From: Ruminococcus sp.
Lineage (GTDB): Bacteria > Bacillota > Clostridia > Oscillospirales > Ruminococcaceae
DNA: 64,000 nucleotides
Direction: 5' to 3'
Assembly: GCA_021199375.1 (NCBI GenBank)
Contig: JAJQIB010000024.1
Span: forward strand, 5,654 to 69,653
Shown in pieces: positions 5,364 to 29,828 of the stretch. The notes beneath the pieces were generated by a model. That model did not search any database and was not told where the DNA came from. It was given only the letters and a program-made list of their open reading frames with translations. The position numbers and the translations under genes are program-made. How positions within the stretch are numbered: the stretch's first letter is position 1; each line of letters begins with the position of its first letter.

Positions 5364-5372
5364 TGATAAGGT

Positions 5373-6040: not shown

Positions 6041-6070
6041 TTGCCTCCACCGCTTTTCTTTTCTATATAT

Positions 6071-6099
6071 ATGATAACATATTTGTTATCAAAAGTCAA
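6071..6099 (-). promoter_or_regulatory. higBA promoter with embedded operator
   Basis: Reading the minus strand: TTGACT, 17 bp, TATCAT. The palindrome GATAACA-TATT-TGTTATC (6073-6090) is perfect and covers the spacer and part of the -10 element, the expected place for an autorepressor operator. Confidence 0.75.
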
Positions 6100-6153
6100 G
6101 GCTTTTATGAGGATTTTTTGCAAATGTTTTATTAACGAGTAGGAGAACACGCA

Positions 6154-6631: not shown

Positions 6632-7141
6632 ATGCTAAACAAAGTAATTCTAATGGGAAGAATCTCAAATGAATTGGAGGTGAAGTATACTCCGACAGGG
6701 CGAGAAGTTTTAAGCTTTAATCTTGCGGTTGAGAGGTCATATGCCGCAAAGAATGAGGAGCGACAAACTGATTTTTTGAGGTGTGTCGCTTGGGGACAAA
6801 CTGCAAGCTTTGTTGACAAGTATTTTGGCAAGGGCAAGATGATAGCTGTTGTGGGAAATTTACGCAGCCGTAGCTACACTGACAAAAACGGTGTAAATCA
6901 ATATATAACTGAGGTTTACGTGGATGAGGTATCATTCACCGGTGAAAAAACGCAGCAGCTTCAAAAGTCAAAGGCGCAGCCACAACAAGCAGTGCCCACT
7001 ACATCAAGCACTAAACAACCAAAATCAGTTGGCAGAAATTCATATGACAAGGATTATGAACAAGATACGCTTCCATTGATTGATATGGCTGAAAACGCAG
7101 AAAATTACGAAGTATTTAATGACGACGGAGTGCCGTTTTAA
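6632..7141 (+). CDS. ssb: Single-stranded DNA-binding protein
   Basis: The 169-residue protein has the OB-fold start MLNKVILMGRISNELEVKYTPTGREVLSFNLAVER, a Gln/Ser-rich linker, and an acidic tip DDGVPF that in this family recruits repair and replication partners. It coats single-stranded DNA during transfer and re-establishment of the element. GAAAGGAAG is the Shine-Dalgarno. It opens the ICE operon; the AbrB regulator follows 20 bp later. It is a second SSB besides the short OB-fold protein at 19444. Confidence 0.93.
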   Translation: MLNKVILMGRISNELEVKYTPTGREVLSFNLAVERSYAAKNEERQTDFLRCVAWGQTASFVDKYFGKGKMIAVVGNLRSRSYTDKNGVNQYITEVYVDEVSFTGEKTQQLQKSKAQPQQAVPTTSSTKQPKSVGRNSYDKDYEQDTLPLIDMAENAENYEVFNDDGVPF

Positions 7142-7161
7142 AATTTGAAAGGATGGTTAAA

Positions 7162-7515
7162 ATGAAAAGCACAGGATTAATAAGACAGATAGACCCACTT
7201 GGAAGAGTTGTACTTCCGACTGCATGGAGAAGAGCTTTAGGATATGAACCGGGGATGTACGTTGAGCTTTTTGCACAGGGTGAGGACATCATAATCAAAA
7301 AACGTAGAGATGCTTGCTTCTTTTGTAATTCGGAGGAAGACGTGCAGATGGTGCTTGGTAAACCAATATGCGGTGAGTGTTTAAACCAAATCAGAAATCA
7401 AAAAGAGAGCAGCAAAGATGAAATGATAGATAAGCTGGGAATCACTCAAACTAAAGATGAATTGAATGAAGAACCGGACGAGGTTATTGTATACTCTGAG
7501 GAGGATCTGAAATGA
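7162..7515 (+). CDS. AbrB/SpoVT-type regulator with zinc-ribbon tail
   Basis: From ATG 7162 (GAAAGGA upstream; ATG 7153 overlaps that site) the protein has a swapped-hairpin AbrB domain, STGLIRQIDPLGRVVLPTAWRRALGYEPGMYVELFAQGEDIIIKK, then a four-Cys zinc ribbon (CFFC and CGEC) and an acidic tail. AbrB-like proteins bind DNA as dimers and act as transition-state repressors. Its stop overlaps the next ATG by 4 bp, coupling it to the ArdC-like protein. It probably regulates the element's own genes. Confidence 0.85.
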   Translation: MKSTGLIRQIDPLGRVVLPTAWRRALGYEPGMYVELFAQGEDIIIKKRRDACFFCNSEEDVQMVLGKPICGECLNQIRNQKESSKDEMIDKLGITQTKDELNEEPDEVIVYSEEDLK

Positions 7516-9779
7516 AGCAAAACAAAATGCGCGAGGAAATGGCTGCTGAGTTTGTAAGCTGTCTGAAAGAGAACAAAATACCTTGGCAATGTGAATGGAA
7601 TGTAATAAAAAACATCAACGGGGTTACTAAATCCGAATACAAGGGAATTAATATGATTTGGCTTAACTATGCTGCTGAAAAAAATGGCTGGAAAGATCCT
7701 CGATGGGTTACTTTTAATCAGGCAAGGGAAAAGGGCTGGTCTGTGAAAAAAGGCTCACGTGGAACACATATTGAATTTTGGAGCGTATACGACATTGAGC
7801 AAAAGAAAACCATTTCGTTTAATGACAGAGACAAGATATTAAAAAACAATCCTAACGTACCTAAAGAACGCTTTAGTCTAATTTCTCGAAATTACACAGT
7901 CTTTAACGGAGATCAGATTGATGGTATTCCTCCGCTCGAAAGCCTTGAGAATTTTAAGCTGAAATCGAGTGATTTTATTTCTTTGAGAGATAATCTTTTG
8001 AAAAATATGAAGGTCGGCTTTTCTGAAGGCGGAAACGAGTCTTTTTACACGCCAAATCTTGATTCAATACAAATGCCTAAAATTGAAAGCTTTAAGGATG
8101 AATACGGCTACATAGCGACATTCCTTCATGAAGCAGGACACGCAACCGGACATCCTACCCGATTGAATCGTGATTTAAGCGGAACGTTTGGCAGCGAAAG
8201 CTATGCTAAGGAGGAACTAAGAGCAGAAATTTCATCAGCCTTTACAGCCGCTCAAACAGGTATAGCCCCGGCAAATCTTGACAATCATAAAGCCTACATA
8301 CAAAGCTGGGCAGATGTTATTGAAAACGATCCAAACGAGCTTTTCAGAGCAATTAAGGATGCTGAAAAAATATCGGATTATCTTCTTGAAAAGGGCGAAT
8401 TTGAAGCTCTGAAAAAGGAGCTTGCAGAAAATATTCAAGAGGCTGACACGAATGTTGCGGGTTTGCATAATTTGGAAAACAGCGAAAGCTATAAAGCCAC
8501 AATAACCGTAAGTGAAGACGAGCTGTTAAAGATAGCAAGCAAGATTGAGCAGAACAAGAAAGAGGAGAAGGCTTTTAAAGAGCAGCTTCACCGATTGATT
8601 GAGGGCGACAAAAAGCTTGCAAGTAGACCGTTGATAATTGGACAAACACCTAATTCCCTTGTGATATGCGGAGCTGATGAAAGCTACGATTTACAAATTC
8701 TCAAAAGTGTTGTAGACAAAGCTTTAAGACCAGAAATAAGAGATGAAAATGGGAAACTCATAGGAAAAACAGGTCACGGTTTGACAGAGAAACAGCTTAT
8801 AAATGCAATTGAAAATATAAAAAATCCCGTAATGATTTTACGGGGTTCTAAGGATGATTCACTTGTAGCTGTGACAGAAATTAAGGACAACAATAACAGA
8901 TATGTTTTTGTTACTATAGACTTAAACAAAAAAACTAGATATGGGGAAGTGAACAATATAACTTCGTCATATGGAAGAAATGATATAGGAGCATATTTTG
9001 AAAGAGAATTTTCTAAAGGTAATTTGTTGTCTGTAAATATAGAAAAAGCCGACAAAGTGCTTCATGCCATAGGGAAATGGTATCCCGAGGGGAACACACT
9101 TATCAGCTTCGATAATAGTATAGCATATTCCACAGCAAATGTCAAGGGTTTTTTGCAAAAAAATTTTCAGAAAAGCAAAAAATTAAAAGGTGACATGAAA
9201 ATACCTTCTCAGAATCAAGTAAAATCAATGACAGCAGACGATAAGCTATTTGATGAAATCATGTCAAAATATGATGCTTACTATTCGTTTTTTGTTGAGC
9301 ATAAAGATTTCGAGTCATCAAAAAGCTATCACGATGCACAGGACGCTTGCAGTGCTTTTATTAAAGACAGAGAGCTTTCTGATTCAATTATGAAAAAATA
9401 TTTTGAGCGTACCGGAGATTTTCTATCATCTGACAGAGAATATGCATCCTTTGCATTTGCACTAGCTGATGCTGGCGTGATCGATAATTTTAGCAATTTT
9501 AGCATTTCTTCTAGCACTCCTTCCGTGGCTTTGCCTGAATTTCACAAAAATGAATCAGGCTATTATCAAGCTAAGGCTGTATATAACGGCAAGAGTGAAT
9601 GGAAAAATGTTCTTAATGACAAAGACAAATGGTATGTCAGACTTGATGACGGTAAAAGGTATTTTTTTAATGAAAGACAAGCGGAAAAGTTTAAGGAGTT
9701 TTCTATTAGCTCCTTAAAAAAAGAATCTAAAGCAAAGGCAGTGGCTGTTCCAGTTGTGGGTAAAAAGCTGAAAATATGA
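7512..9779 (+). CDS. Polyvalent protein: ArdC-N, zincin peptidase, MuF-C-like domain
   Basis: This 755-residue protein starts with an ArdC-type N-domain (residues 1-150: IPWQCEW, GWKDPRWVTFNQAREKGWSVKKGSRG), known to bind single-stranded DNA and to act in antirestriction. A zincin metallopeptidase follows with HEAGH at about 206. Residues about 395-515 (IIGQTPNSLVICG, HGLTEKQL, NPVMILRGSKDDSLVAVTEI, SYGRND) fit the MuF C-terminal domain found in polymorphic effectors. The last 70 residues (LPEFHKNESGYYQAKAVYNGKSEW, LDDGKRYFFNE) are shared with the next gene. This fits the polyvalent proteins of phages and conjugative elements, which are thought to travel with the DNA and protect it. Confidence 0.82.
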   Translation: MKQNKMREEMAAEFVSCLKENKIPWQCEWNVIKNINGVTKSEYKGINMIWLNYAAEKNGWKDPRWVTFNQAREKGWSVKKGSRGTHIEFWSVYDIEQKKTISFNDRDKILKNNPNVPKERFSLISRNYTVFNGDQIDGIPPLESLENFKLKSSDFISLRDNLLKNMKVGFSEGGNESFYTPNLDSIQMPKIESFKDEYGYIATFLHEAGHATGHPTRLNRDLSGTFGSESYAKEELRAEISSAFTAAQTGIAPANLDNHKAYIQSWADVIENDPNELFRAIKDAEKISDYLLEKGEFEALKKELAENIQEADTNVAGLHNLENSESYKATITVSEDELLKIASKIEQNKKEEKAFKEQLHRLIEGDKKLASRPLIIGQTPNSLVICGADESYDLQILKSVVDKALRPEIRDENGKLIGKTGHGLTEKQLINAIENIKNPVMILRGSKDDSLVAVTEIKDNNNRYVFVTIDLNKKTRYGEVNNITSSYGRNDIGAYFEREFSKGNLLSVNIEKADKVLHAIGKWYPEGNTLISFDNSIAYSTANVKGFLQKNFQKSKKLKGDMKIPSQNQVKSMTADDKLFDEIMSKYDAYYSFFVEHKDFESSKSYHDAQDACSAFIKDRELSDSIMKKYFERTGDFLSSDREYASFAFALADAGVIDNFSNFSISSSTPSVALPEFHKNESGYYQAKAVYNGKSEWKNVLNDKDKWYVRLDDGKRYFFNERQAEKFKEFSISSLKKESKAKAVAVPVVGKKLKI

Positions 9780-9788
9780 GGAATAGTT

Positions 9789-11432
9789 ATGAGCAAATAT
9801 GTTATAGACGGTGATGAACCGCTTGATTTTGAAAGCTATGATGAAGCAATTACAAGAGCTGAGCAAACAAGTGTTGATGCTGTGAGAAAAAGCGACGACT
9901 TTGTTATGTATTCGCCTAACGATGATAAAGAGCTAATAACTTATGAAAAATATACGTACGAAGATTGGAAAACGGCTGTAAAAGGTCATCACAGTGCAAG
10001 GGACAGCCCTTCAGTGTACTTTGATATTGACGGTACTTTGGGCTATTGGTACAAGGATGGTCGGGGCTTGCCGCTTGAGGAAATACTCAATCCGAAAAAT
10101 CACTACTTTCGAGATATAGAGCCTCATCCGATGATGATTGAGCTTGCAAAAGCTTTACATAACAGTGGGACAGATGTTTGTATCATAAGTGCCGCCGACA
10201 GAGATACCTTTAGGGACAAATGGGAGTGGATAAACAAACATTTACCGTTTATTCCAAAGGAAAACATATGCTTTGCTCCGCTCGGTGTAGATAAATCAAA
10301 ATTTGTCAAAGGTAATGCCGCACATTCAATTTTGATTGACGATTACAACGTAAATCTTGATAAGTGGTGCGGCAAAGCAATCAAGGCTATTAATTTTGTC
10401 AATTCTCATCAGCTTAAATACCAAGAAATTGACTTTACAAAATCCGAACAGCTGCTTAGAGATAATCCGACATGGACTACAAAGGATTTTAAAAAAGAAA
10501 TCATAGCTGCAAGGGATTTTGTGCTTGAAGAGATTAAGGTGCAGCAAAATGCTATTAGGTTTGCTAAAGAGGTTGATGATGCTTTAGCAGGAAAAATGAA
10601 TCAATTTAATAATTTGAAAGTTTGTGAAACACCGCAAATCTTATTGAACGTAGGGTGTAGACAATTGCCGATGCTTTACACTCAACATCACTTAAAAGAT
10701 GCTTTGCATATGAAATCTGCATCAAATTCTCATTGGCACGGATTGACAACTGAACAGATGAAAAAGATACCTGAATTGTTGCAAGATCCCACCATGATTT
10801 TTGATACCTTATCAACCAAAAACTCAAATAGCATTGGAATAATATTGAATGCTATGGACAACGACAATGCACCTTTGTTGGTGTCAATTATGCCTAATGG
10901 TAATGGAATATACGAATTAGAAGCAGTTGAAAGTAATTTTATTACCAGCATATATGGGAAAGATAGTTCTTTTAGTCGCTTCGTTGAAAGAATTATTGAA
11001 AGTGACAAAATGCTTTTTTTTAATAAAGAAAAAAGCCAAGAATTATTTTCGTCTCTGCAGCTCCAATTGCCGCAGGCGTTAAACAATCTTGACTCTAATA
11101 TTATTATACACCAAAGTCGCAATATTGTCAAGGGTTTTCCACAAAAAATTTCAGAAATTTCAGTAGGCTTACCCGAATTTCGCAAGGAGAACGGCAAGTG
11201 GCAAGCTAAGGCTGTGTATAACGGCAAAAAGGAATGGACAAGCATTATAAATAGTGATGATAAGCTGTGTATCAGACTTGATGACGGCAAAAGGTATTTT
11301 TTTAATGAAAAACAAGCTAAAAAGTTTAAGGAGTTTTTTCTTTCTGAAAGCAAGAAAGCTAATAAGGACGTGGACGCTCAAAGGCTTTTAGGAGAAAGCT
11401 TTAGCTTTTTTAAAGGGCTTGGAAAAAAGTAA
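9789..11432 (+). CDS. Polyvalent protein: HAD-type 5'-nucleotidase fused to MuF-C-like domain
   Basis: Residues about 70-215 form a HAD phosphatase close to 5'(3')-deoxyribonucleotidases: YFDIDGTLGYW (motif I with the Asp nucleophile), ISAADRDTF (motif II), ILIDDYNVNLDKW (motif IV). A MuF-C-like domain follows (ETPQILLNVGC, HGLTTEQMKKIPELLQDPTMIFDTL, SIYGKDSSF). The C-terminal 75 residues match the end of the preceding protein almost word for word (QAKAVYNGKKEW, IRLDDGKRYFFNEKQAKKFKEF). GAGGAA precedes the ATG. The enzyme may dephosphorylate nucleotides in the recipient; that role is inference. Confidence 0.78.
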   Translation: MSKYVIDGDEPLDFESYDEAITRAEQTSVDAVRKSDDFVMYSPNDDKELITYEKYTYEDWKTAVKGHHSARDSPSVYFDIDGTLGYWYKDGRGLPLEEILNPKNHYFRDIEPHPMMIELAKALHNSGTDVCIISAADRDTFRDKWEWINKHLPFIPKENICFAPLGVDKSKFVKGNAAHSILIDDYNVNLDKWCGKAIKAINFVNSHQLKYQEIDFTKSEQLLRDNPTWTTKDFKKEIIAARDFVLEEIKVQQNAIRFAKEVDDALAGKMNQFNNLKVCETPQILLNVGCRQLPMLYTQHHLKDALHMKSASNSHWHGLTTEQMKKIPELLQDPTMIFDTLSTKNSNSIGIILNAMDNDNAPLLVSIMPNGNGIYELEAVESNFITSIYGKDSSFSRFVERIIESDKMLFFNKEKSQELFSSLQLQLPQALNNLDSNIIIHQSRNIVKGFPQKISEISVGLPEFRKENGKWQAKAVYNGKKEWTSIINSDDKLCIRLDDGKRYFFNEKQAKKFKEFFLSESKKANKDVDAQRLLGESFSFFKGLGKK

Positions 11433-11445
11433 TAGGAGGAAAAAT

Positions 11446-12525
11446 ATGTTTGAAAAGAATTATTCATCGGGCAAAAGCTTTACAATGTACTCAAACGAGG
11501 AAATCGCTAGGGCGAGAGATGTTGACATGACTGAATTTATTCCTCGATACAGTGATGAAGAATGTTTTGTGAGAACAGGCGGCACATATAAGGGAAAGGT
11601 GCATGACAGCCTTTGGATTGAATCAGACAACAGGAGCTGGCACTGGAGCTCAAAGGATCTTTACGGTATCGGAGCAATTGATTGGCTTGTTAAGGTAAAC
11701 GGCTACAGCTTTAAGGAAGCTTGCAGCTTGCTAATCGACAAAAGTCCGTCATATTACTCGAGAGACGCACCTAAACAGACTCAAACTCAGTTGCCTCATC
11801 CTGATCAGCCTGAAAGAGTGTTCGTCCCACCCAAAAAAACAAGCGGACAATGTAGAGAATTGTTTGCGTATTTGGGTAAGACAAGAGGTTTGCCAAACGA
11901 TATTATCGACTATTGTTTGAGAGATAAACTCATATATCAAGACGAAAAAAGACGAGTTGTCTTTTGTGGATATGACAAAAATGGTGACATGAAATTTGCC
12001 GAGGCAAAGATCACGAATACATACAAGAAGTATTATCCACAAAACATTTCAGGTTCTAAAAAAGAATATAGCTTTTTTATACCTGCTAACAGGACAGCAT
12101 ATGGTTATGATCCAACGCAAATATATGTGTTTGAAGCACCGATTGATTTGCTAAGTCATGCTGCTCTTATGCAGGAAGCAATGAAAAGACAGTGTGCATT
12201 AACAGGAGATATGAATCTTTTCAGAGCCGATTGCTGGCTTGCACACAATAGGCTTTCTCTTTCCGGACTTAGCGAGGCTGCACTGTTTAGACGACTTGAG
12301 GAAAATCCGAATATAAGCAAGATTGCATTGTGCCTTGATAATGACGAAAAAGGTCAGGAAGGTGCAAAAAGAATACAAAATCATTTGAAGGAAAAATATG
12401 GAGATAAATACCATGTGAAGGTCGTTATTCCGCCCAAAGGCAAGGACTGGAACGATACGCTTAAGGCGACAAATAACACAAATGTGGTAAAAGCATCCGT
12501 AAAGCCTACAATGAAAAAATTTTAA
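11446..12525 (+). CDS. DUF3991/TOPRIM primase-like protein
   Basis: Start ATG 11446 has AGGAGG 7 nt upstream; the track's 11419 start lies in the previous gene. The 359-residue protein has an N-terminal region (IDWLVKVNGYSFKEACSLLI) resembling the zinc-binding/DUF3991 part of mobile-element primases, then a TOPRIM segment: VFEAPIDLLSHAAL and IALCLDNDEKGQEGA, with the conserved Glu and DxD-type acidic residues. Proteins of this family occur in ICEs and plasmids and probably prime complementary-strand synthesis after transfer. Confidence 0.83.
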   Translation: MFEKNYSSGKSFTMYSNEEIARARDVDMTEFIPRYSDEECFVRTGGTYKGKVHDSLWIESDNRSWHWSSKDLYGIGAIDWLVKVNGYSFKEACSLLIDKSPSYYSRDAPKQTQTQLPHPDQPERVFVPPKKTSGQCRELFAYLGKTRGLPNDIIDYCLRDKLIYQDEKRRVVFCGYDKNGDMKFAEAKITNTYKKYYPQNISGSKKEYSFFIPANRTAYGYDPTQIYVFEAPIDLLSHAALMQEAMKRQCALTGDMNLFRADCWLAHNRLSLSGLSEAALFRRLEENPNISKIALCLDNDEKGQEGAKRIQNHLKEKYGDKYHVKVVIPPKGKDWNDTLKATNNTNVVKASVKPTMKKF

Positions 12526-12539: not shown

Positions 12540-12917
12540 TTGAAAAAAGTAAAAAAGAAGGCTCGCAGAGCATATTTAGCAGTGAGAAATCACGTTGATA
12601 AGCTTGCAGCAAAAGCTCTAGGAGCAATAACTGTTAGTATGGGAACAAGTATTGCAGCAAGTGCAAGCAGCTCTAATAGCAATACCACTACCGCATGGGA
12701 TTCAATTGTAACTTGGATCAATAATAATGCGTCAAACTTAAAAACCGTAGCATATGCTCTTATTGGTCTGTGCCTTGTAGCAGCGGCAATATGCATGGCT
12801 ATAGGCGGAACACAGGGCATGGGCAAGGTGAAAAACTGGCTTATTGGATTATGCGTAGCAGTACTAATACTCGTATTTGGCGCATCGCTTCTTAGCAGCC
12901 TTTACACAACCTCGTAA
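12540..12917 (+). CDS. VirB2/TrbC-like pilin or small T4SS membrane protein
   Basis: The start is a TTG at 12540 placed 6 nt after CGGAGGG; no ATG fits. The 125-residue protein has a basic N-terminus, an Ala/Ser-rich signal-like region (VSMGTSIAASASSS), and two hydrophobic helices (TVAYALIGLCLVAAAICMAIGG and WLIGLCVAVLILVFGASLL) with a short GMGKVKN loop. This layout and the place just ahead of the VirB6-like gene are typical of the VirB2-like subunit of Gram-positive conjugation systems. Confidence 0.75.
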   Translation: MKKVKKKARRAYLAVRNHVDKLAAKALGAITVSMGTSIAASASSSNSNTTTAWDSIVTWINNNASNLKTVAYALIGLCLVAAAICMAIGGTQGMGKVKNWLIGLCVAVLILVFGASLLSSLYTTS

Positions 12918-12923
12918 AAAAAT

Positions 12924-12968
12924 GAACGCACAAATCATGTGCGTTCGCAAGAGCAAATCCTCATTTGC
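12924..12968 (+). other. Two mRNA hairpins between pilin and VirB6-like genes
   Basis: GAACGCAC-AAATCAT-GTGCGTTC (12924-12946) and GCAAAT-CCTC-ATTTGC (12953-12968) lie in the 90-bp gap, without a T tract. They may be a partial terminator or processing/stability site that raises pilin over downstream products. Confidence 0.6.
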
Positions 12969-13007
12969 CTTTGCAAGCGTACATGATTAAAAAGGAAAGG
13001 AATTTTT

Positions 13008-15341
13008 ATGAAAATATCTAAGGTAAAAGCTTTTGGTTTTTGGATTTTTTGCTTTTTGACAGCTCTTAGTCTGATGTTCGGCAGCATTGCCGCTTGTGCT
13101 GCTGATGCTTCAGGATATGATGGCTGTCCTAAAAATGTACTTGAAATGATTTCCAAAGCGACATGGTGGAAAAACATATTTAGAACAATGGGCTTCAGCA
13201 TACTAAAATTCATTGCAACCGTAGTAGACTATTTTCAAGAGGCAGTAGATGCCGTTTTGGATTTGAATTTGTATAGCTATGTTTCAAGCTCATATAAATT
13301 TAGTGGCACACAAACTCTTGTAATAGCAATTGCCGGTCTTGCACTAATTATCGGTGCTTGTGCAATGGTCTTGTTTCACGAAAAAATCAAAGCATCAGAT
13401 TTTTTGATCAATGTACTTGTATCTATGATGCTGCTAGTCGCATTTCCTACCTTTATGTCAGCTTGTAAGCAGCTGCAAAGTAAGGGAGTTGATGCAGTAC
13501 AAGAAGTATCTGAAACCGACAATAGCAGTGTTATCGTAAATGAGGATGGTACTGTTTCATATGCTTCTCTTGGAAGCAATATCTTAGGAAATGTAATTTA
13601 TCCAGTCAGAGAGAGTGTAAACGATAAAGAAAAAACCTCGTACAATGATTATTACGGAAATGGTTCAGGTGTGGAAGATATAAGCATAAACAAAATTCTG
13701 ACTCACGATGGCACTTGGCGATCTTATTACATAGAAGACATTTCAACGAATTTGCCAACTCAGAAAAAGTTTGATGAGCTTACAACTGAGAATATGATGG
13801 AGCTTTTAGGACTTGGCGATATATACGATTTTTACGAGCGTATGCTAGAGCAAGCTGCATCCGATTTTGACAACAATAAATTTATCATTTACGGACACTC
13901 AGTTGGAAATGGGTATACATACAATGTGTATTCTACATTAAGCACAGGTGAAACGCAGAGCAAATTTAACGTATTTACTGATGATGATTTGTATGTTTAC
14001 GAGAAAGACGAAAATGGAAATGAGGTTAAAACCGAAAGAATATGGACGGTAAATTACGGTTTTGGAGTAGGAACAACCGTTGCACTTGCCAATTGCTATT
14101 ATGGAAACACGCTTGCTTATCCTGTTGGTACTAGTGTCGGCAGCTTTGAAACATATATAAAGGATCAGATAGCTAATTGTGACGCAGTACGTGAAGCAGG
14201 AGTGCAATCCTCCTATGTGGGTTCAAACTCAAGAACAATAGAGGAAGCTTTAGACCTCATCAAGGACACGGTGATTTATGATCTGAACGTTGAAGAAAAT
14301 ACAGAAATTGCAAAAGAGATTGAGGGTGAAACAGAATATATAGCAGCAGCCCTTTTGACACAAAGTGGATATGATAACCTATCAGATTCTGAAAAATTGT
14401 GGCAAAATATAAGCGTAGGGTACGGAGAGGAAGATCTCTATTGGTGGCACATGGACTTTTTAGAAGGACTCACATTGCTTTTAGCAGTTTGCATTTGTCT
14501 TTTGGCAGCTGGATTTAAGATAGTTACCACACTTTTTGAAATCATGTTCAATCAGGTAATAACACCATTTATCATAGCAACAGACCTTAATGGTGCAGGA
14601 AGAAGCAAAAAGGCAATACAAAATATGCTGTTGTCAACAGTCGTTTTGATGATTATCGTAATGCTGCTTGATCTGTATATATCAGTAGTTTTGGGAGTGA
14701 TGGACAGCAAATACGGTGACAACATTGCGGTTATGCTGCTTGTAATAGTTGGAGGAGCTAAATTTGTAATTGATGGTCCGGATTTGCTGACAAAGATTTT
14801 CGGAATAGATGCCGGAGCAAAGTCAGGTATGGGTATGATTATGGGAGCAACGCAAAGTGCATCCATGGTTTCAATGAATGCTGGTCAGGCTGTCGGTGCT
14901 GCTGGAAAAGCTGCTTCAGGTGCTGTAAGTACAGTCGCAGGTGCAGGAAAAAGAGTTGGCGGCTCTATAGCCGGTACTGCAAAAGGTGTTGTTGGAGGAG
15001 TTGCAGGCGGAATAAAAGGTGGCGACACATTGCCTGGAAAGGTCAAAGGTGCAATCGAAGGAGGAGCAGTTGGCGGAGTCACAGGAGCAGTAGGCGGAGC
15101 ATTTGGACATACTGATGCCGGCAAAAACATAGGAGGAGCAGTCGGGGAAAAGGGAGTAGTTGGAGCTTCAAAGGATGCACTTAATAATAAATTTGGCAGA
15201 TCGGATTCACTTCAAGGAAATGATTCTTCAGCAGGTGCAGCTGCTTCCGAGGGCAATTCAAAGTCAGAGGGCTCTTCGTCCTCCGGTGAAGGCAAGGGCT
15301 TTGATGGAGCATCATCTTCCGGAGGAGCTTCATCAGAATAA
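13008..15341 (+). CDS. VirB6/TrbL-like polytopic T4SS protein
   Basis: The 777-residue protein starts with a signal peptide (FWIFCFLTALSLMFGSIAACA), has helices near 55-75 and 100-150, a long extracytoplasmic loop (about 165-480), then four to five membrane helices (WHMDFLEGLTLLLAVCICLLAAGFKI, VVLMIIVMLLDLYISVVLG, IAVMLLVIVGGAKFVI) and a Gly/Ala-rich flexible tail from about residue 610. This architecture matches the VirB6/TrbL channel component of Firmicute ICEs. It stands between the pilin and VirB3-like genes. The long external loop is likely to contact the recipient or wall; that is inference. Confidence 0.8.
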   Translation: MKISKVKAFGFWIFCFLTALSLMFGSIAACAADASGYDGCPKNVLEMISKATWWKNIFRTMGFSILKFIATVVDYFQEAVDAVLDLNLYSYVSSSYKFSGTQTLVIAIAGLALIIGACAMVLFHEKIKASDFLINVLVSMMLLVAFPTFMSACKQLQSKGVDAVQEVSETDNSSVIVNEDGTVSYASLGSNILGNVIYPVRESVNDKEKTSYNDYYGNGSGVEDISINKILTHDGTWRSYYIEDISTNLPTQKKFDELTTENMMELLGLGDIYDFYERMLEQAASDFDNNKFIIYGHSVGNGYTYNVYSTLSTGETQSKFNVFTDDDLYVYEKDENGNEVKTERIWTVNYGFGVGTTVALANCYYGNTLAYPVGTSVGSFETYIKDQIANCDAVREAGVQSSYVGSNSRTIEEALDLIKDTVIYDLNVEENTEIAKEIEGETEYIAAALLTQSGYDNLSDSEKLWQNISVGYGEEDLYWWHMDFLEGLTLLLAVCICLLAAGFKIVTTLFEIMFNQVITPFIIATDLNGAGRSKKAIQNMLLSTVVLMIIVMLLDLYISVVLGVMDSKYGDNIAVMLLVIVGGAKFVIDGPDLLTKIFGIDAGAKSGMGMIMGATQSASMVSMNAGQAVGAAGKAASGAVSTVAGAGKRVGGSIAGTAKGVVGGVAGGIKGGDTLPGKVKGAIEGGAVGGVTGAVGGAFGHTDAGKNIGGAVGEKGVVGASKDALNNKFGRSDSLQGNDSSAGAAASEGNSKSEGSSSSGEGKGFDGASSSGGASSE

Positions 15342-15361
15342 TAAAGAAGGGAAAAATAATC

Positions 15362-15679
15362 ATGGGACTTGTACCAAAGAAAACAAAGGCTGAATTTCGC
15401 ATTTGGCGAAGCATAACGCTTACAAGAGTAGTAGGCGGTATACTTACTCTTGCTATATCATCTCAAATATCAGATATGCTTGTATATTCAAAGCTTAATA
15501 TGGTATTTATCATTTTTTGCTGTATAATATACATAATCCTATCAGGTTCATCGCCCTCAGATCCCACAAAGAAGTTTGCGGCGGCATACCTTGATTGGAT
15601 TAGATTTTTGTTTAGCCGCAAGAAAATCTATAGAGAGGACAAAAAAGATGCTAAAGAAAACAAGAAAATCAAGCACTGA
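15362..15679 (+). CDS. VirB3/PrgI-like T4SS membrane protein
   Basis: The 105-residue protein has a basic cytoplasmic start, two membrane helices (VVGGILTLAISSQISDMLVY and LNMVFIIFCCIIYIILSG) and a charged tail. Its position directly before and overlapping the VirB4 gene (32 bp overlap) is the usual arrangement of PrgI/VirB3-like subunits with their ATPase. AGAAGGG precedes the ATG. Confidence 0.8.
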   Translation: MGLVPKKTKAEFRIWRSITLTRVVGGILTLAISSQISDMLVYSKLNMVFIIFCCIIYIILSGSSPSDPTKKFAAAYLDWIRFLFSRKKIYREDKKDAKENKKIKH

Positions 15680-18245
15680 ATCAAAAATGTCGTTTGACAG
15701 AATATCAAACGGATTGATTTACATGAAGCAAAAAAGCAAGTCCATTCTTGCGGGTGTACTTGCAATTACAGGCTGTGACATTGATAACATGGATGAGTAT
15801 GAGCGTGATAACGCCTATTCAGAATTTGCTCATGCAACAATGTCACTGCGCTGTAATCACAAATACATATTCACATCAAAAACACCATATCTGAACGTGC
15901 AAAAATCGTATTTGAGATATAAAGCTCAAAAGAGCAATAGCAGCTACTGCAAAGCTTTGCTAAACGAACAGATTAATATATTTGAAAGCTTTGAGCAAAG
16001 CCATTATGACCGCACCGCTTATCTTTTGATTTATGGTAAAAATGAAAAAGAAATAAGGGATGCTGCAAACAGATATATGAACCGCATGAATTATGTAAAT
16101 GCGCAGTGGTGTGGTGATGAAGAGATAGCGGTCATGATAAACAAGCTGCTATGTCTGGGAGCAGATACGGGAGAGATGATGACAAAAACGTCATTAAACG
16201 ACAAGCTGCTTCCCGAAAATGTTACAATACACTCTAATTTTTATTGCGCCAAGGACAAGCTTGCACAAACAGTAGTCGTTTACAGTTATCCTGCTCAGCT
16301 TAGAGATTTAGAGATAATGTCGCTTGTTTCCGGCTTTGACGATACAGCTATGCTTGACATAGGAGAATGCGACAAGCAACAGGTTTTAAATGAAATTCAA
16401 ATCTCTTTGCGTGAGCTTGAATCAAGAATAAGCATTGTTCAGGATGCGGCAGAAAAGCAGGATACGCAAACGGAATTTGAAAAGCTTTCTGTAATATATG
16501 ACAGCTTGAAAAACGGAGCAGAACAGCTTTACTATGTTACCCTTCGTTTTTTGCTTTACGATGATAATTTGAAGAGATTGCAGGAGCGTTCGTTAGATGT
16601 TGTAAAGGAGCTTGAGCAACGAGGTCTTTTAGCATATGTACCTACAAACACCATGCTAAAGGAGTTTTCTTCTCTTGTTTTTGAGTCAAATACAATAGAA
16701 AATCCATTCCCCGTTTATGACACTCTTAGCCGCCAATATCCCTTTTACTATCAGTCACATATAGACGACACGGGATTGTTTTTCGGGTATACCGAAACCG
16801 GAGGACTCACAATACTTGATACATTTACACGTAATCAGGATCGTAATTCCTATGATTTACTTGCAGTAGGAGTAAAGGGTGGCGGAAAATCTGTAACGCT
16901 AAAAAGCATGGTTGAACAGCAGCTGATGATTGGAAACAAGGTAATGGTGCTTGATATTGAGTCAGAGTATTCAGAAATGGCAAGGGTATTTGACGGACAG
17001 GTCATAAAGATGAATCAAAATTCAAGGATAAACCCATTGCAAATTACTAAATCGGTAGAAGCATCAGTTGAGGACGATATATCTAAGTCAGATGAATTTA
17101 GTGCAAACTATGCCTCAGAAATGTCAAGAATACGCACATTTATGTCAATGTATATACAGGACATAGATATGTTTACTCTTGAAGCATTCATGGAGATTGT
17201 AAGCGAGTGTCTTAACGAACGAGAGATATATCCAACAACAGATATATCAAAGATACCAAATGACCGCTTTCCTACCTTTTCAGACGTACTAAAAAAGCTC
17301 AAAAATAAGCTCAAAAACACAGAAAGGCTAACAGAAAAACTAACATCAGCCTACAGCGTTTTAGAGGTTTATCTTAAACCATTGACAGGTGACGGAGCGT
17401 ACGCTAGTATGTTTGATGGTGCGACAAATGTTGATGTAAAGGAAAATTCTCTTGTAGTTTTTGATGTAAAAAACCTAAGCGAGATGTCAGAAAACGTGTA
17501 TAACGCACAGCTTTTCAATATTCTCACTATGATGTGGGCGCAAATATGTAAAAATACTCTTGCAAATCAGAAGCTAACTAATCCATGGGATAAGCACTCT
17601 GTTGTCTGTTTAATTGATGAGGCTCACAGGTTTATCTCGGTAAAATATCCTCAAGTGACGGAATTTATCGAAAAGCTGGTGCGTCGAACAAGAAAATATA
17701 TAGCGGCTTTGTGGTTTGCAACGCAGTCAATTTTGGACTTCTTTCCTAGCGGTGATACACAAGCAGCTGAGAAAATCAAAGTTATCTTTTCGCTTGTACA
17801 ATACAAGGTAATACTCAAACAGTCGCCAGATTCTTTAGTGGCACTGCACAAAATTCTGCCGCAGTTTACTGAAAGCGAGCTTGCTCAGTCCGTTTCATTT
17901 TACCCAGGACAAATGCTTTTGTCGCTCGGATCTGGCAGACTCAAGCTTCATTGCAGCCGTATTGTTACTGATCGACAGATGCTCTACATGGGTAACGCTC
18001 AAGACAGAAGTGAGATTATCCACAACTGCTTTTCGCATTATTACAACGAGTACAGTAATGCTGAGTATGGCGCAATGCTTAAGACTAATGAGGATATATC
18101 GTATTTTAAGAACTGCTTTTTGGAGGAAACATACACATACCTACAGCTTGAGAAAGGCAGCAGCGAGGTGCTTGATGAGATTGTTGTTATGCTTGTAGAT
18201 AGCCTAACAAACGAGCTTTTAAATGGGAGGGTAAGACAGAAATGA
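15648..18245 (+). CDS. virB4: VirB4-family T4SS ATPase
   Basis: I place the start at ATG 15648 (GAGAGGA 8 nt upstream), not 15576, giving 865 residues. Walker A AVGVKGGGKSVTLKSM is near 405-420 and Walker B VVCLIDEAHRF near 650; the text between carries the RecA-like core (VMVLDIESEYSEMARVFDGQVIKMN, ...WFATQSILDFF). VirB4 powers assembly and substrate passage of the conjugation channel at the inner face of the membrane. The stop codon overlaps the next start by 4 bp. Confidence 0.93.
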   Translation: MLKKTRKSSTESKMSFDRISNGLIYMKQKSKSILAGVLAITGCDIDNMDEYERDNAYSEFAHATMSLRCNHKYIFTSKTPYLNVQKSYLRYKAQKSNSSYCKALLNEQINIFESFEQSHYDRTAYLLIYGKNEKEIRDAANRYMNRMNYVNAQWCGDEEIAVMINKLLCLGADTGEMMTKTSLNDKLLPENVTIHSNFYCAKDKLAQTVVVYSYPAQLRDLEIMSLVSGFDDTAMLDIGECDKQQVLNEIQISLRELESRISIVQDAAEKQDTQTEFEKLSVIYDSLKNGAEQLYYVTLRFLLYDDNLKRLQERSLDVVKELEQRGLLAYVPTNTMLKEFSSLVFESNTIENPFPVYDTLSRQYPFYYQSHIDDTGLFFGYTETGGLTILDTFTRNQDRNSYDLLAVGVKGGGKSVTLKSMVEQQLMIGNKVMVLDIESEYSEMARVFDGQVIKMNQNSRINPLQITKSVEASVEDDISKSDEFSANYASEMSRIRTFMSMYIQDIDMFTLEAFMEIVSECLNEREIYPTTDISKIPNDRFPTFSDVLKKLKNKLKNTERLTEKLTSAYSVLEVYLKPLTGDGAYASMFDGATNVDVKENSLVVFDVKNLSEMSENVYNAQLFNILTMMWAQICKNTLANQKLTNPWDKHSVVCLIDEAHRFISVKYPQVTEFIEKLVRRTRKYIAALWFATQSILDFFPSGDTQAAEKIKVIFSLVQYKVILKQSPDSLVALHKILPQFTESELAQSVSFYPGQMLLSLGSGRLKLHCSRIVTDRQMLYMGNAQDRSEIIHNCFSHYYNEYSNAEYGAMLKTNEDISYFKNCFLEETYTYLQLEKGSSEVLDEIVVMLVDSLTNELLNGRVRQK

Positions 18246-19429
18246 AGATATTATCTCCTAAAAAAAGCAGTAGAATATATGCAGCCTTTACGCTATTAAG
18301 CATAAGTATTATGGCTTTTTTTCTATGCTCAAACATGATTTTTTCTTCCGAAAGCGTATCAAGCAGCGTCAATTACGACACGCAGCTTACTCAAAACTGC
18401 TACACTATTAAGATTACCGATGCTTCTTTTCACGATGGAATAATTGAGTTTACACTAAAATGTAAGCTTACACAAACAGCGAGCACACAGTCTTATCCGG
18501 AGGTTTCAAGTGTTACCTTTGATTCATCATTAGTAGAATATGAATTTGAAACAGGTGAAAAATACGATGATTATTCGCAAATAGTTACTGTTTTATCGCC
18601 TCCGAACGAATTTGAACTAATGAAAATAACTGTAACAAGTAAGCTTGCTGATACCGTATATGAAGACAGCTACAACGATTTTGGAGAGCTTGTTGAAGGA
18701 TATACACAGGAAGGTGAAAGCTTCTCCGAAGTAGTCACGGTCGATAAAAAGGATATGTCCGACAAACATATAGAGGCTGTTCCCGGCTATAGCGACAGCG
18801 TAGAGGAGAACGGTAATGACACTTTTGATGACCCGAATTTATCAAACGAAGAGGCATCAATCGTTGCTTCAGAAAGCGAAACCACATCGTCTAAAGCCAC
18901 AGAAAAACCAGCGGAAACATCTGAAAGCAGCACACAAAGCTCCGCCATGTCTTCTGCTGAAACAACAGTAGAAACAACTTTGGTAACGCAGCAAACACAG
19001 TCAGATGAGATTCAAACAACTCAACCACAGACTGTTACACAGACAACCACTAGTCAAATCCAAACTACAACAGATGTGCCGCAAACAACAGCTGCATCAG
19101 CAACAAAAGCGAGTACAACTACAGCAAAAAGTAAGACTACTACAACGAAAAAAACGACAACAGCAACTACAAAAAGCACTTCGTCAGTACCAACTAAAAT
19201 AAGCATTTCAAACGGTGACGTAACGATTGGTATAGGTCAAAGTATCACGCTTTCTGCATTTATTGAGCCGTCAAATGCTGAAACAAGCATAACATGGAGC
19301 GTCAACAGAAATGACCTTGCAAGCGTAAATTCAAAGGGAGAAGTTAGCGCTTTAGCTGCCGGAAAAGTAATTGTAACGGCTACAACTTCAAACGGACTTA
19401 GTGCAAGTACAATGATTACAATTGAATAA
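18242..19429 (+). CDS. Membrane-anchored Thr/Ser-rich protein with C-terminal BIG2 domain
   Basis: The 395-residue protein has an N-terminal signal anchor (AFTLLSISIMAFFLCSNMIF), an extracellular beta-rich domain (about 45-180), a long low-complexity Thr/Ser/Gln linker (about 210-320, runs such as TTTTKKTTTATTK), and a C-terminal Ig-like BIG2 domain (KISISNGDVTIGIGQSITLSAFIEPSNAETSITWSVNRNDLASVNSKGEVSALAAGKVIVTATT). It is coupled to virB4 by an ATGA overlap, so it is probably a surface part of the transfer apparatus that contacts recipient cells or the wall. No sortase motif is seen. Confidence 0.8.
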   Translation: MKILSPKKSSRIYAAFTLLSISIMAFFLCSNMIFSSESVSSSVNYDTQLTQNCYTIKITDASFHDGIIEFTLKCKLTQTASTQSYPEVSSVTFDSSLVEYEFETGEKYDDYSQIVTVLSPPNEFELMKITVTSKLADTVYEDSYNDFGELVEGYTQEGESFSEVVTVDKKDMSDKHIEAVPGYSDSVEENGNDTFDDPNLSNEEASIVASESETTSSKATEKPAETSESSTQSSAMSSAETTVETTLVTQQTQSDEIQTTQPQTVTQTTTSQIQTTTDVPQTTAASATKASTTTAKSKTTTTKKTTTATTKSTSSVPTKISISNGDVTIGIGQSITLSAFIEPSNAETSITWSVNRNDLASVNSKGEVSALAAGKVIVTATTSNGLSASTMITIE

Positions 19430-19443
19430 TTGGAGGTAAAAAA

Positions 19444-19743
19444 ATGAAATTTGCAAATCAAAACAACAAGGTGAGAATTAACGGATATGTAGCAAGTGAG
19501 ATCACAAAAAACTGCTACAACACTGAATTTACGATAGGTGTGGCACGAAAAACAAGCGGTGGAGAACGAGGATATAGCGACTATTTCAGTGTCTACATTA
19601 ATGATCCTGCTACCATGAATTTTGTAGTTACACACTTAAAAAAAGGATCTTCAATCATAATCAAAGGTGAGCTGCGTAATTTCAAGGATGGCTCGATTAA
19701 GATCTGTTCGAGTGACATAACGCTGCCAAGCACTAAAAAATGA
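19444..19743 (+). CDS. Short OB-fold single-stranded DNA-binding protein
   Basis: The 99-residue protein (KVRINGYVASEITKNCYNTEFTIGVARKTSGGERGYSDYFSVYIN, then KKGSSIIIKGELRNFKDGSIKICSSDITL) follows the beta-barrel pattern of SSB but lacks the linker and acidic tip of the protein at 6632. TTGGAGG precedes the ATG. It may bind DNA in transfer rather than recruit host replication partners. Confidence 0.7.
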   Translation: MKFANQNNKVRINGYVASEITKNCYNTEFTIGVARKTSGGERGYSDYFSVYINDPATMNFVVTHLKKGSSIIIKGELRNFKDGSIKICSSDITLPSTKK

Positions 19744-19757
19744 GAAGGAAAGATATT

Positions 19758-20321
19758 ATGAATGATGCTCAAATCATGTTTGAATATCCGGTTGAGGATA
19801 TGCAAATAATCATCGAGGAAGAGATAACCGAGATACAAAATCGACTCAAAAAAGTGAAGATAACTGCTTTTTCTATTCTTTCGTTTTCTCTGATTTTGTT
19901 TCTGATTTACTCGATTTTTTCGGTTAAAATAATCACAATCATAGCCGTGATTTCGCTTTTGTTTTCATCATTTTTGTTTTCCTTATGTATAAAAAATGAG
20001 CGACATTTTCTTCATATAAGGGCAAATGAAAACGAAATGACGCTAAAATATTTTACATCAAAGGGACTAAAAGAAATGCAAATATGGTACGAGGATATAT
20101 CGAAAATAACCTTTTCAAAAGATTATACCTCTGTGAGAATTGAGGGGAAATCAAAAAACACGCGCTTTAAGCATGAGATCCTTCTTAATAATGCTACTCC
20201 GGAGCAGGGATTTTTCCTTTATACGTTACCAAGACTGACCGATAAAGCTAGGATAAACAGCAAGAAAATTGAGCGAATTTTTGGTACGCAAGAGGAATTT
20301 TACGAGAGAATGGGGGCTTAA
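19758..20321 (+). CDS. Two-helix membrane protein with cytosolic beta-rich domain
   Basis: The start ATG 19758 follows GAGAAGGAA; the 19740 start overlaps the previous stop and lacks a site. The 187-residue protein has two adjacent membrane helices (FSILSFSLILFLIYSIFSVKIITIIAVISLLFSSFLFSLCI) and a C-terminal domain of alternating strands (FLHIRANENEMTLKYFTSKGLKEMQIWYEDISKITFSKDYTSVRIEG) reminiscent of bacterial PH/YcxB-like domains. It lies among transfer genes; its role is unknown and the PH resemblance is tentative. Confidence 0.6.
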   Translation: MNDAQIMFEYPVEDMQIIIEEEITEIQNRLKKVKITAFSILSFSLILFLIYSIFSVKIITIIAVISLLFSSFLFSLCIKNERHFLHIRANENEMTLKYFTSKGLKEMQIWYEDISKITFSKDYTSVRIEGKSKNTRFKHEILLNNATPEQGFFLYTLPRLTDKARINSKKIERIFGTQEEFYERMGA

Positions 20322-20323
20322 AA

Positions 20324-20638
20324 ATGGAGGTAAAAATCCGAGGAATTGACGAGAAAATCATCAAAGAAATTGATAAAATTGCAGACCGTGACAAGCTTTC
20401 ACGCAACGCTTTAATCGTCAAAATTTTGTCCGATTATGTAGCTTGCAAGGATGAATTTTTGTCAAATTCGCTGCCGAAAATAACGAAAAGCTTGGTCGAA
20501 AATGAGTTAAAAAGGCTTACATTAACCGCCGATTGTGTGACCGAAAATGTGTATATTGCGACACTAAAAATGATGAAATCTGCTGAAAAAATTGAGATTT
20601 TTTTCACTTCCGACAGCGATTTTTCGCAAAAAAAATGA
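20324..20638 (+). CDS. Ribbon-helix-helix relaxosome/regulatory protein
   Basis: The N-terminus MEVKIRGIDEKIIKEIDKIADRDKLSRNALIVKILSDYV has the strand-helix-helix form of ribbon-helix-helix DNA-binding proteins. At 104 residues, directly upstream of the iteron/hairpin region and the relaxase gene, it is a good candidate to bind the 42-bp iterons at 20742 as a relaxosome accessory factor or autoregulator. A GGAGG-like site is weak because the genes are only 2 bp apart, suggesting coupling. Confidence 0.72.
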   Translation: MEVKIRGIDEKIIKEIDKIADRDKLSRNALIVKILSDYVACKDEFLSNSLPKITKSLVENELKRLTLTADCVTENVYIATLKMMKSAEKIEIFFTSDSDFSQKK

Positions 20639-20741
20639 TAAAAAAATCGACTGACGATGACGATTTTTGAGTGTCATTTACAAAAAGTATTTATTTCAAA
20701 TACAAAAATAACATCACAGGTTCATAAAGCCGAAACACCTA

Positions 20742-20884
20742 TATTTACGACATAAATAAGCTTACAGATTTTAGGAAAAAGTTTATTTACGGCATAAATA
20801 AGAATCCATAATTTAGGAGAAAATATATTTACGACATAAATATGTTTACATATTTTAGGAGATTTCATATTTACCACATAAATA
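20742..20884. repeat. Four 42-bp iterons, TATTTACGRCATAAATA
   Basis: The core TATTTACGACATAAATA (copies 1 and 3; one-base variants in 2 and 4) starts at 20742, 20784, 20826 and 20868, an exact 42-bp period. Each core is an inverted repeat TATTTA-5-TAAATA. Copies 1-3 are followed by a shared ATTTTAGGAG-like block. Forty-two bp equals four helical turns, so all sites face the same side of the DNA, as expected for cooperative binding at an origin of transfer or replication. Confidence 0.9.
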
Positions 20885-20888
20885 TGAA

Positions 20889-20964
20889 AAAGTGGGATGA
20901 CCCCACTTTGTGGGTTAAAAAAACACGGTTCTACCGTGTTTTCCGAGCGGCGTGACCCCACGCC
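20889..20964. other. Three-hairpin region, candidate oriT
   Basis: Directly after the iterons come AAAGTGGG-ATGAC-CCCACTTT (20889-20909), AAAACACGG-TTCTA-CCGTGTTTT (20920-20942) and GGCGTG-ACCC-CACGCC (20949-20964), all perfect stems. The block sits between two relaxosome-type genes and just before the relaxase, the usual place of oriT in MOBP elements. The nick site cannot be fixed by eye; the second hairpin could also act as a terminator for the upstream operon. Confidence 0.6.
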
Positions 20965-21015
20965 TTTATGCTCATGTAGAGCCTTCTTAACAAAAAAATT
21001 GAAAGGAGAATTTTG

Positions 21016-21432
21016 ATGGGTGATAAAAAAATACGGACATACAGCTTTGATGAAAGTGTCCTCGAAAAATTTGATACGCTGTTTGAGTACAGCGATGCAA
21101 GAACAAAGAGCGACTTGCTAAGCGAACTGATCTGTGAAGCATACGACAAGAGCATTGACGATGAAGCAATTAGATTGATGAGGATTGAAGAAAAGCTAGA
21201 TCGAATTTTGAAAATCTCAAATGAGAATAATCTATACGACTATGAAATTCGTGACGCTCTAAATTCTTTGATTACCTATTACGAACCGACAACTAGTTTT
21301 GTTTCGGCAGATGAGCAATTTAGCAACTCAGCCCTCCATGATTACATCCTACGGTCAAAGGAAAATTACCTTGCTAAGCTACACGCAAGGTCGATTGAGA
21401 GCAAGGGAATAAAAAAGGGTGAGGACAAATGA
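21016..21432 (+). CDS. Relaxosome accessory protein (MobC-like)
   Basis: ATG 21016 has AAAGGAG at proper spacing; TTG 21013 is rejected. The 138-residue protein begins MGDKKIRTYSFDESVLEKFDTLFEYSDARTKSDLLSELICEAYDKS, compatible with a ribbon-helix-helix DNA-binding start, followed by helical segments. It overlaps the relaxase start by 4 bp. MobC-type proteins help the relaxase melt and nick oriT, which here would be just upstream. Confidence 0.7.
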   Translation: MGDKKIRTYSFDESVLEKFDTLFEYSDARTKSDLLSELICEAYDKSIDDEAIRLMRIEEKLDRILKISNENNLYDYEIRDALNSLITYYEPTTSFVSADEQFSNSALHDYILRSKENYLAKLHARSIESKGIKKGEDK

Positions 21433-23936: not shown

Positions 23937-23943
23937 AAAACGC

Positions 23944-23973
23944 TTGACAAACACTAAAAAGGCGTGGTATAAT
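23944..23973 (+). promoter_or_regulatory. Promoter for the rhuM-like gene
   Basis: TTGACA, 18 bp, TATAAT, followed by AAGGAG and ATG 24003. Confidence 0.8.
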
Positions 23974-24002
23974 AAAGAGGAAAAAGATAAGGAGATTGTA
24001 TC

Positions 24003-25046
24003 ATGAGTACAAAAGATGAAATAACCATTCGCTCAAGTGCAGCGGAATATCTGACTTATGTTGCTTCTGTCGGCGAACAGCAGGATAGCATTGAGATGCG
24101 ATATGAGGACGAAAATATCTGGCTGACACAAAAAATGATGGCGACTCTCTACGATGTGAGCTTGCCAACGATTAACGAACATATCAAAAAAATATATGCG
24201 GATAATGAGCTATCAGAATCATCAACTATTCGGAATTTTCGAATAGTTCAAACTGAAGGAAGTAGAGAGGTATCACGCAATGTGAAGCACTATAATCTTC
24301 AAATGATTATTGCAGTAGGCTTCAAGGTAAACAATGAGCGAGCGGTTCAGTTTCGTAAATGGGCAAACGCTATCGTTAAAGATTACACGGTTCAAGGCTG
24401 GGCAATGGATGACGAACGTCTGAAAAACAGTGGCACGATTTTGACAAAAGACTATTTTGAAAAGCAACTTGAAAAAATCCGTGAAATTCGTATGTCTGAA
24501 CGTCGATTTTATCAAAAAATAACGGACATATATGCAACTGCGTTAGATTATGACCCTTCTGCAAAAGCGACAAAACGATTTTTTGCCGCTGTACAGAATA
24601 AATTGCACTATGCTGTTCATGGACAAACAGCAGCAGAGGTAATATATGATAGAGCTGACAGCAGCAAGGAACATATGGGACTTACCACGTGGGACGGTGC
24701 GCCAAAAAGCAAAATACATTCATACGATGTTGTTGTTGCAAAAAATTATCTGTCGGAATTTGAACTCGGACAGATGCAAAGAATCGTATCGGCGTATTTG
24801 GACATGGCAGAGGATATGGCAAACAGACATATTCCAATGACCATGGAGGACTGGGAAAAACGCTTGAACGGATTTTTGAAGATGTGGGATAGAGAGGTTT
24901 TACAAGATGCCGGAAAGGTTTCAGCAGAGCTTGCTAAACAACACGCATTAAGTGAGTTTGAAAAATACAGAATCGTTCAAGACAGATTATTTAAGTCGGA
25001 TTTTGATGAGTATCTCTTGGAATCAGAAGAAAATCCACAAAAATAA
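24003..25046 (+). CDS. RhuM-family (virulence protein RhuM-like) protein
   Basis: The 347-residue protein fits the RhuM family: IEMRYEDENIWLTQKMMATLYDVSLPTINEHIKKIYADNEL, RKWANAIVKDYTVQGWAMDDERLK, and YDRADSSKEHMGLTTWDGAPKSKIHSYDVVVAKNYLSEFE. The family is found on pathogenicity and mobile islands; the N-terminal part contains a helix-turn-helix-like segment and the molecular function is not firmly known. It has its own promoter and terminator between the relaxase and the coupling-protein gene, which are normally neighbours, so it is a self-contained cargo insertion. Confidence 0.85.
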   Translation: MSTKDEITIRSSAAEYLTYVASVGEQQDSIEMRYEDENIWLTQKMMATLYDVSLPTINEHIKKIYADNELSESSTIRNFRIVQTEGSREVSRNVKHYNLQMIIAVGFKVNNERAVQFRKWANAIVKDYTVQGWAMDDERLKNSGTILTKDYFEKQLEKIREIRMSERRFYQKITDIYATALDYDPSAKATKRFFAAVQNKLHYAVHGQTAAEVIYDRADSSKEHMGLTTWDGAPKSKIHSYDVVVAKNYLSEFELGQMQRIVSAYLDMAEDMANRHIPMTMEDWEKRLNGFLKMWDREVLQDAGKVSAELAKQHALSEFEKYRIVQDRLFKSDFDEYLLESEENPQK

Positions 25047-25068
25047 AATTCATGAATCAATTTTCACC

Positions 25069-25097
25069 AGAAGGGCTTATTCACAGCCCTTCTTTTT
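25069..25097 (+). terminator. Intrinsic terminator of the rhuM-like gene
   Basis: AGAAGGGCT-TATTCAC-AGCCCTTCT is a perfect 9-bp stem followed by TTTTTG. Confidence 0.88.
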
Positions 25098-25111
25098 GTT
25101 TGGAGGTTAAA

Positions 25112-29562: not shown

Positions 29563-29828
29563 ATTTTTTCAAAAGGGGTAGTGTTCAATTTGTCACCTCT
29601 ATTTGTAACCCACTCTTAGTATTATCTTTCTGAAAAAGAAATATATATCTTGCTATTATATATTAGATTAGATATTATTAGTTAGTTAGACTTTTTGTTC
29701 TCACAAAACGAAATCGCCTTTTTCTTTCAGACAGCTATTCATTGTTGAAAAATGTTATGATTTGAAATATAATGTTTTATTGAGCATTGCTTGACATTGT
29801 TCAAAATAATATTTTGGAGTGTGAAAAA
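29563..29828. other. AT-rich intergenic region before the integrase
   Basis: No credible ORF. It holds an AT-rich run (ATATATATCTTGCTATTATATATTAG) and a promoter at 29745. Integrase arm-binding or excisionase sites may lie here but none can be proven. Confidence 0.5.
29745..29772 (+). promoter_or_regulatory. Promoter of the integrase gene
   Basis: TTGAAA, 16 bp, TATAAT, about 57 bp before the integrase start. Confidence 0.65.

Follow-up and report, generated by a model that had tools for sequence, protein, structure and literature searches.

Two adjacent polyvalent proteins of a Ruminococcus ICE share a small C-terminal domain

Conjugative elements are known to carry polyvalent proteins, including a class in which an ArdC-N domain is combined with an MPTase domain (Iyer et al. 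2017, PMC5512222). The same work described the PBECR domains, the MuF-C of Mu among them, which have a BECR fold, a site formed by His and Ser/Thr, and a predicted RNase activity. The ArdC-N and zincin combination is also found in TraC1 of RP4 and in ArdC of R388, which is needed in the recipient and works when made there, export not being required (PMC7213743). Some T4SSs also move proteins; the F-type system transfers SSB and other plasmid proteins (PMC8406263). The best-documented signal domain shared between T4SS substrates is BID, which in Bartonella forms the C-terminal module of VbhT and is also present on the relaxase TraA (PMC5675462). The proteins that Gram-positive ICEs send into recipients, and the signal used, are poorly known.

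The locus described here lies in a window of 64,000 nt, the whole stretch of DNA that was analyzed (Ruminococcus sp. GCA_021199375.1, contig JAJQIB010000024.1, positions 5,654 to 69,653 of the forward strand), and all positions are counted along it. Two complete, neighboring open reading frames on the plus strand, separated by 9 nt, encode the proteins we call A and B. The stop of an AbrB/MazE-like gene overlaps the start of A, and a primase gene beginning at 11419 overlaps the end of B, which places both in one operon-like run with an SSB gene upstream. The preliminary description had read A and B as two adjacent ICE proteins, and the pilin, VirB4, MobL, VirD4 and integrase genes nearby bear this out: the genome of a Ruminococcus-like gut bacterium, whose nearest relative belongs to the same genus, harbors an ICE here. 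A RhuM protein is also encoded downstream of the pair. The features are as follows.

6632..7141, plus strand: SSB (PF00436, E 6.5e-30)
7153..7515, plus strand: AbrB/MazE-like DNA-binding protein (PF04014, E 7.5e-9)
7512..9779, plus strand: protein A, 755 aa, with ArdC-N, zincin, MuF-C, helical module and tail
7524..7904, plus strand: A, ArdC-N ssDNA-binding domain, residues 5-131 (Pfam PF08401, E 1.6e-24)
7989..8354, plus strand: A, MPTase-PolyVal zincin-like peptidase, residues 160-281 (PF18818, E 8.4e-40)
8682..9068, plus strand: A, MuF-C, profile at residues 419-514, predicted fold at about 391-519 (PF18819, E 1.5e-18; model and fold matches)
9231..9506, plus strand: A, helical module, residues 574-665, ..FLSSDREYASFAFALADAGVI (all-helical in the model)
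9531..9731, plus strand: A, shared tail domain, residues 674-740 (alignment with B; predicted strands and C-terminal helix, pLDDT about 80)
9789..11432, plus strand: protein B, 547 aa, with HAD/NT5C phosphatase, MuF-C and tail
10005..10415, plus strand: B, HAD nucleotidase-like domain (PF06941, NT5C, E 3.5e-11)
10722..11042, plus strand: B, MuF-C, residues 312-418 (PF18819, E 3e-20; conserved His and Ser present)
11169..11366, plus strand: B, shared tail domain, residues 461-526 (alignment with A; same predicted strand-helix pattern)
11419..12525, plus strand: DUF3991/Toprim primase-like protein (PF13154, PF13155)
12540..27562, plus strand: conjugation module, from pilin to T4CP, containing the next five features
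12540, plus strand: VirB2-like pilin
13008, plus strand: pLS20_p028-family membrane protein
15576, plus strand: VirB4
21429-23936, plus strand: MobL relaxase
25052, plus strand: VirD4-type T4CP (coupling protein)
29787..30995, plus strand: tyrosine integrase at the right end (PF00589, E 5e-27)

The N-terminal enzymes proposed for the two proteins in the preliminary description, ArdC/zincin in A and an HAD nucleotidase in B, were both recovered by Pfam profiles. Protein A combines ArdC-N with a zincin whose HEAGH motif is intact at residue 206, as expected of the ArdC family, and matches the anti-restriction family phrog_7245 with an E-value of 5.9e-75. It thus resembles the polyvalent proteins of conjugative elements in the ArdC-N and MPTase class, with ArdC-N followed by zincin and MuF-C and with T4SS genes adjoining, as well as the ArdC of R388 and TraC1 of RP4, with a primase gene adjacent in our case; in contrast to R388 ArdC, A has a long C-terminal extension. 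In protein B, the NT5C profile spans residues 104-209, and the HAD motifs DIDGT (at 79) and LIDDY (at 182) are intact. In a low-confidence model, this segment has 3bwv and 5uj0 as fold matches, the proteins concerned being a deoxyribonucleotidase-like protein and the 3' phosphatase of T4 Pnkp, so that profile, D-x-D-G-T and DD motifs and folds all liken B to NT5C and T4 Pnkp, whereas the HAD domain of B is fused to MuF-C and the tail. Both proteins carry at least two disparate activities on one polypeptide (ArdC-N, peptidase and MuF-C in A; HAD phosphatase and MuF-C in B) and are encoded beside T4SS genes, as polyvalent proteins are. An HAD nucleotidase domain like that of B is not named in the main text of the polyvalent-protein study (PMC5512222). 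Polyvalent proteins are a known kind; what is new is that two neighbors of this kind are joined by one lineage-specific common terminal domain, the tail.

A MuF-C domain had been proposed for both proteins, and here profile and predicted fold agree with that proposal, the first for A and B and the second for A. The MuF_C profile scores 67.2 and 72.7 bits in A and B against a curated cut-off of 27.6, and these two domains, about 30% identical, are the only part of the proteins outside the tail that is similar. The C-terminal part of A was modeled from five aligned rows (mean pLDDT 62.7, with the MuF-C and tail blocks mostly at 70-85); the full-length model of B was poor (pLDDT 38) and was used for the tail and HAD segments only. 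A Foldseek search of viral models with the C-terminal model of A gave ten matches with E < 1e-4 (best E 1.8e-10), several of them named MuF C-terminal domain or PolyVal. When candidates from the PDB were aligned to the model with VIA-align, BrnT ranked highest (Z 6.1, 75 aligned residues, rmsd 3.1), and 17 of the 18 top rows (Z 4.1-6.1) were titled as BrnT-, RelE-, HigB- or YoeB-type toxins or toxin-antitoxin complexes, the other being a conserved hypothetical protein of Helicobacter. Since every Z-score against RelE-type toxins is middling, below 8, these alignments support the predicted BECR (RelE-like) fold of the MuF-C of A at the level of fold only. An alignment of 18 MuF-C sequences conserves H422, N481, S485, Y487, G488 and K512 of A; the His, Asn, Ser, Tyr and Gly are kept in both A and B, and the His and Ser occur in 17 of the 18 sequences, both of ours included. 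With a His near the first helix and a C-terminal Ser/Thr, both domains have the PBECR arrangement. The likeness to MuF_C (PF18819) and the PBECR domains thus extends from profile to RelE/BrnT-like predicted fold and conserved residues; the difference is that these copies are ICE-borne and joined to ArdC or HAD enzymes, with an activity that is predicted. They are best read as RNase-type effector domains with a predicted ability to cleave RNA, and a RelE/BECR-type fold speaks against reading MuF-C as a packaging module. The fold evidence links the MuF-C domains carried by ICEs with RelE-type RNase toxins and suggests that these anti-restriction proteins may also act on RNA.

The tail is the part in which A and B are most alike. 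Aligned residues 674-740 of A and 461-526 of B are identical at 44 of 66 positions (67%; BLASTP E 7e-26). The C-terminal stretch of about 70 residues had been called almost identical, a wording that suits a core of 12 residues, RLDDGKRYFFNE, a perfect run in the alignment, and overstates the match across the whole tail. The DNA was also said to match, and it does so with 79% identity over 150 nt (9558-9707 and 11193-11342; blastn E 4e-34). Its longest identical run is 22 nt, compared with 10-14 in codon-shuffled controls, and this, together with the low E-values, puts the similarity of DNA and protein far beyond chance. The pair has a dN of 0.26 and a dS of 0.94 (dN/dS about 0.27), which indicates an old relationship under purifying selection; a recent duplication was rejected on the dS of about 0.94.

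In the model of A, the tail is built from five short strands, with a helix of 21 residues at its C-terminal end (pLDDT about 80), and the same strand-helix pattern appears at a pLDDT of about 67-79 within the otherwise poor model of B. With a pI of 9.7, compared with 5.5-5.9 for the protein cores, and about 15% aromatic residues, it is predicted to be a compact, small (about 65 residues), basic beta-plus-helix domain. Both models match free-standing phage proteins that are only about 70 aa long (for example from phage Privateer) over a tail-sized length. The match to A0A6G8R3R3 has a probability of 1.00 and 0.91 for the A and B models with E above 0.05, and is a lead only because the fold output gives no aligned range. 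PC4-like and PH-like folds were considered and not adopted, as they appeared in weak rows only (Z 2.4-3.5). The searches gave the tail no sequence relative and no confident fold match, and it is called a putative binding domain because it is charged, rich in aromatic residues and compact.

Within the window, a profile built from both tails hit no further open reading frame, the MobL relaxase, primase and SSB all being without it, and it found only A and B in their own genome. Nothing beyond A and B was found with this profile in 13 genus, 341 class and 348 phylum genomes, or with single tail sequences in 297 family and 295 order genomes. These sets, roughly 1,200 distinct genomes in total, are samples with one genome per species, so the rarity of the tail is relative. 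Marginal hits (loci L005-L016 and L039-L048) were inspected and attributed to chance, as they fall in frames containing stops or in proteins of other kinds, some of which look RimP-, MurE- or LysM-like by eye. The plasmid collection gave nothing for the tail (E 6 or worse), the phage collection nothing significant, and the viral contigs no match for the tail, A or B. Pfam had no match to the tail at E<0.1, the best PHROG value was 0.037, and the PDB sequence search returned nothing credible, only repeat proteins with 'DGK.Y.FN'. The preliminary description had proposed looking for the tail on other proteins of related ICEs, and none was seen in these genome, plasmid, phage and viral sets. Of the two outcomes that it named as refuting, neither appeared: we found no housekeeping protein carrying the tail, and the MuF-C fold is predicted. 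As a lead only, gp247 of mycobacteriophage I3 has a 44-residue similarity to the tail at E 0.07. The helical module between MuF-C and tail in A, which has no Pfam match and is missing from B, recurs (FLSSDREYASFAFALADAGVI) in giant helicase/methylase-type polyvalent proteins (loci L030 and L035).

A sister locus (L003 in genome G143) occupies the same chromosomal site, its left and right flanks corresponding to window 1-6200 and 31067-33911. It encodes SSB, an AbrB-like protein, homologues of A and B, a winged-helix protein and a different integrase, and a search of the sister genome found no homologue of VirB4 or MobL. In the sister A, MuF-C occurs twice, with about 90% and 69% identity to the domain of A in the window, while the sister B is 76% identical in the HAD region, more diverged in MuF-C, and has SpoVG in the place of the tail. 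The duplicated MuF-C and the exchange of tail for SpoVG indicate that this region shuffles MuF-C and C-terminal cassettes. Along L003:6001-10634, the ArdC protein with two MuF-C copies is followed by a 100-N assembly gap and then by HAD-MuF-C-SpoVG; the sister A and B, whose exact ends are hidden by the gap, may be one giant polyvalent protein.

The literature on ArdC and polyvalent proteins makes it most likely that A and B, either transferred or made in the recipient, act around the time when the ICE enters a new cell. Our preferred account, held tentatively and with slightly less than even confidence, is that they are co-acting establishment effectors whose tail is a docking or nucleic-acid-binding module of old duplicated origin. 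Co-expressed during or just after conjugation, A would use ArdC-N to bind the single strand as it enters and would counter restriction, B would hydrolyze nucleotides or nucleic-acid ends with its HAD phosphatase, and the RelE/BECR-fold MuF-C of both would cut or bind RNA in the new host. The basic tail would be a binding domain in its own right, through which the two enzymes reach the same partner: a protein common to both, or else RNA or the transferred strand. It would have spread between the neighboring genes by an old partial duplication or by recombination within the cassette-shuffling region, and been kept since by purifying selection. Weighing against this account, the sister B does without a tail, and R388 ArdC need not be transferred. 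PADLOC reported no defense-system match for A or B.

For the tail itself, we rank binding or docking first, a delivery signal second and a passive by-product third. A translocation or packaging signal was the role originally suggested, and in the form of a BID-like T4SS recognition module, to which the VirD4-type coupling protein would bind and thereby send A and B into the recipient along with the DNA, we consider it doubtful; a docking or nucleic-acid-binding module fits slightly better. In arrangement the tail does recall BID, a C-terminal module that a conjugative element likewise places behind N-terminal enzymes unrelated to each other, and the pVbh toxin, whose C-terminal delivery domain is common to the relaxase, documents such a system (PMC5675462). 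Both tail carriers lie within the conjugation operon, and the sister lacking detectable VirB4 and MobL has a B without the tail. The last 50 residues have a net charge of +8 in A and +5 in B, which ranks them, like the primase (+7) and MobL (+5), with the highest values of the element, and in some T4SS substrates a positive charge at the C-terminus plays a part (PMC11288057); however, HigB, whose transfer is not expected, is an example of other proteins that end in a basic stretch (+6), and the tail is predicted to be folded and not a flexible signal. The relaxase is an obligatory T4SS substrate. A T4SS signal might therefore be expected on it, as BID is in pVbh, yet the tail is absent from MobL, from the primase and SSB, and from any other ICE effector in the genomes searched, which leaves the delivery reading unsupported.

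That the tail has no shared function and is a passive product of recombination between neighbors, tolerated at their 3' ends, is unlikely: just two copies were found in the sets searched and the sister shows how recombinogenic the region is, but the dN and dS values speak for long-term purifying selection, as does a domain that is intact and predicted fairly confidently in A as well as in B. More improbable still is an immunity or autoinhibition module that silences the RNase-like MuF-C in the donor. The tail does lie C-terminal to the toxin-fold domain in A and B, with no separate antitoxin gene evident right beside them, but in A the 90-residue helical module stands between the two, and most of the MuF-C proteins found lack the tail. 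Returning to docking and delivery, the tail could be a lineage-specific, transferable domain for one or the other that marks two different effectors for co-delivery with the ICE DNA. It would then do in a Gram-positive system what BID does, without descending from the relaxase; we regard this as an unlikely proposal. As a docking or delivery module, the common C-terminal domain of these two adjacent effectors with unrelated enzymes is a candidate that is defined, small (about 65 residues) and open to testing.

Several other features of the window were observed. The MobL relaxase (window 21429-23936) has at least four Sel1 repeats at its C-terminus, and upstream of it, at 20740-20888, are AT-rich direct repeats (TATTTACGACATAAATA) with a 42-nt period, possibly an iteron or oriT region. 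The region 3986-5338 holds a gene for an NS_2-type endonuclease, and the 46 nt at its end (4753-4798) recur with 93% identity at 5293-5338; these repeats flank an open reading frame of 135 aa (4802-5209) that is absent in the sister genome, and the region is a possible toxin-immunity cassette. Within 30997-33052, a 128-nt segment beside the integrase recurs at 32268-32395 and 32684-32811, at the chromosomal site where the sister genome has its different integrase.
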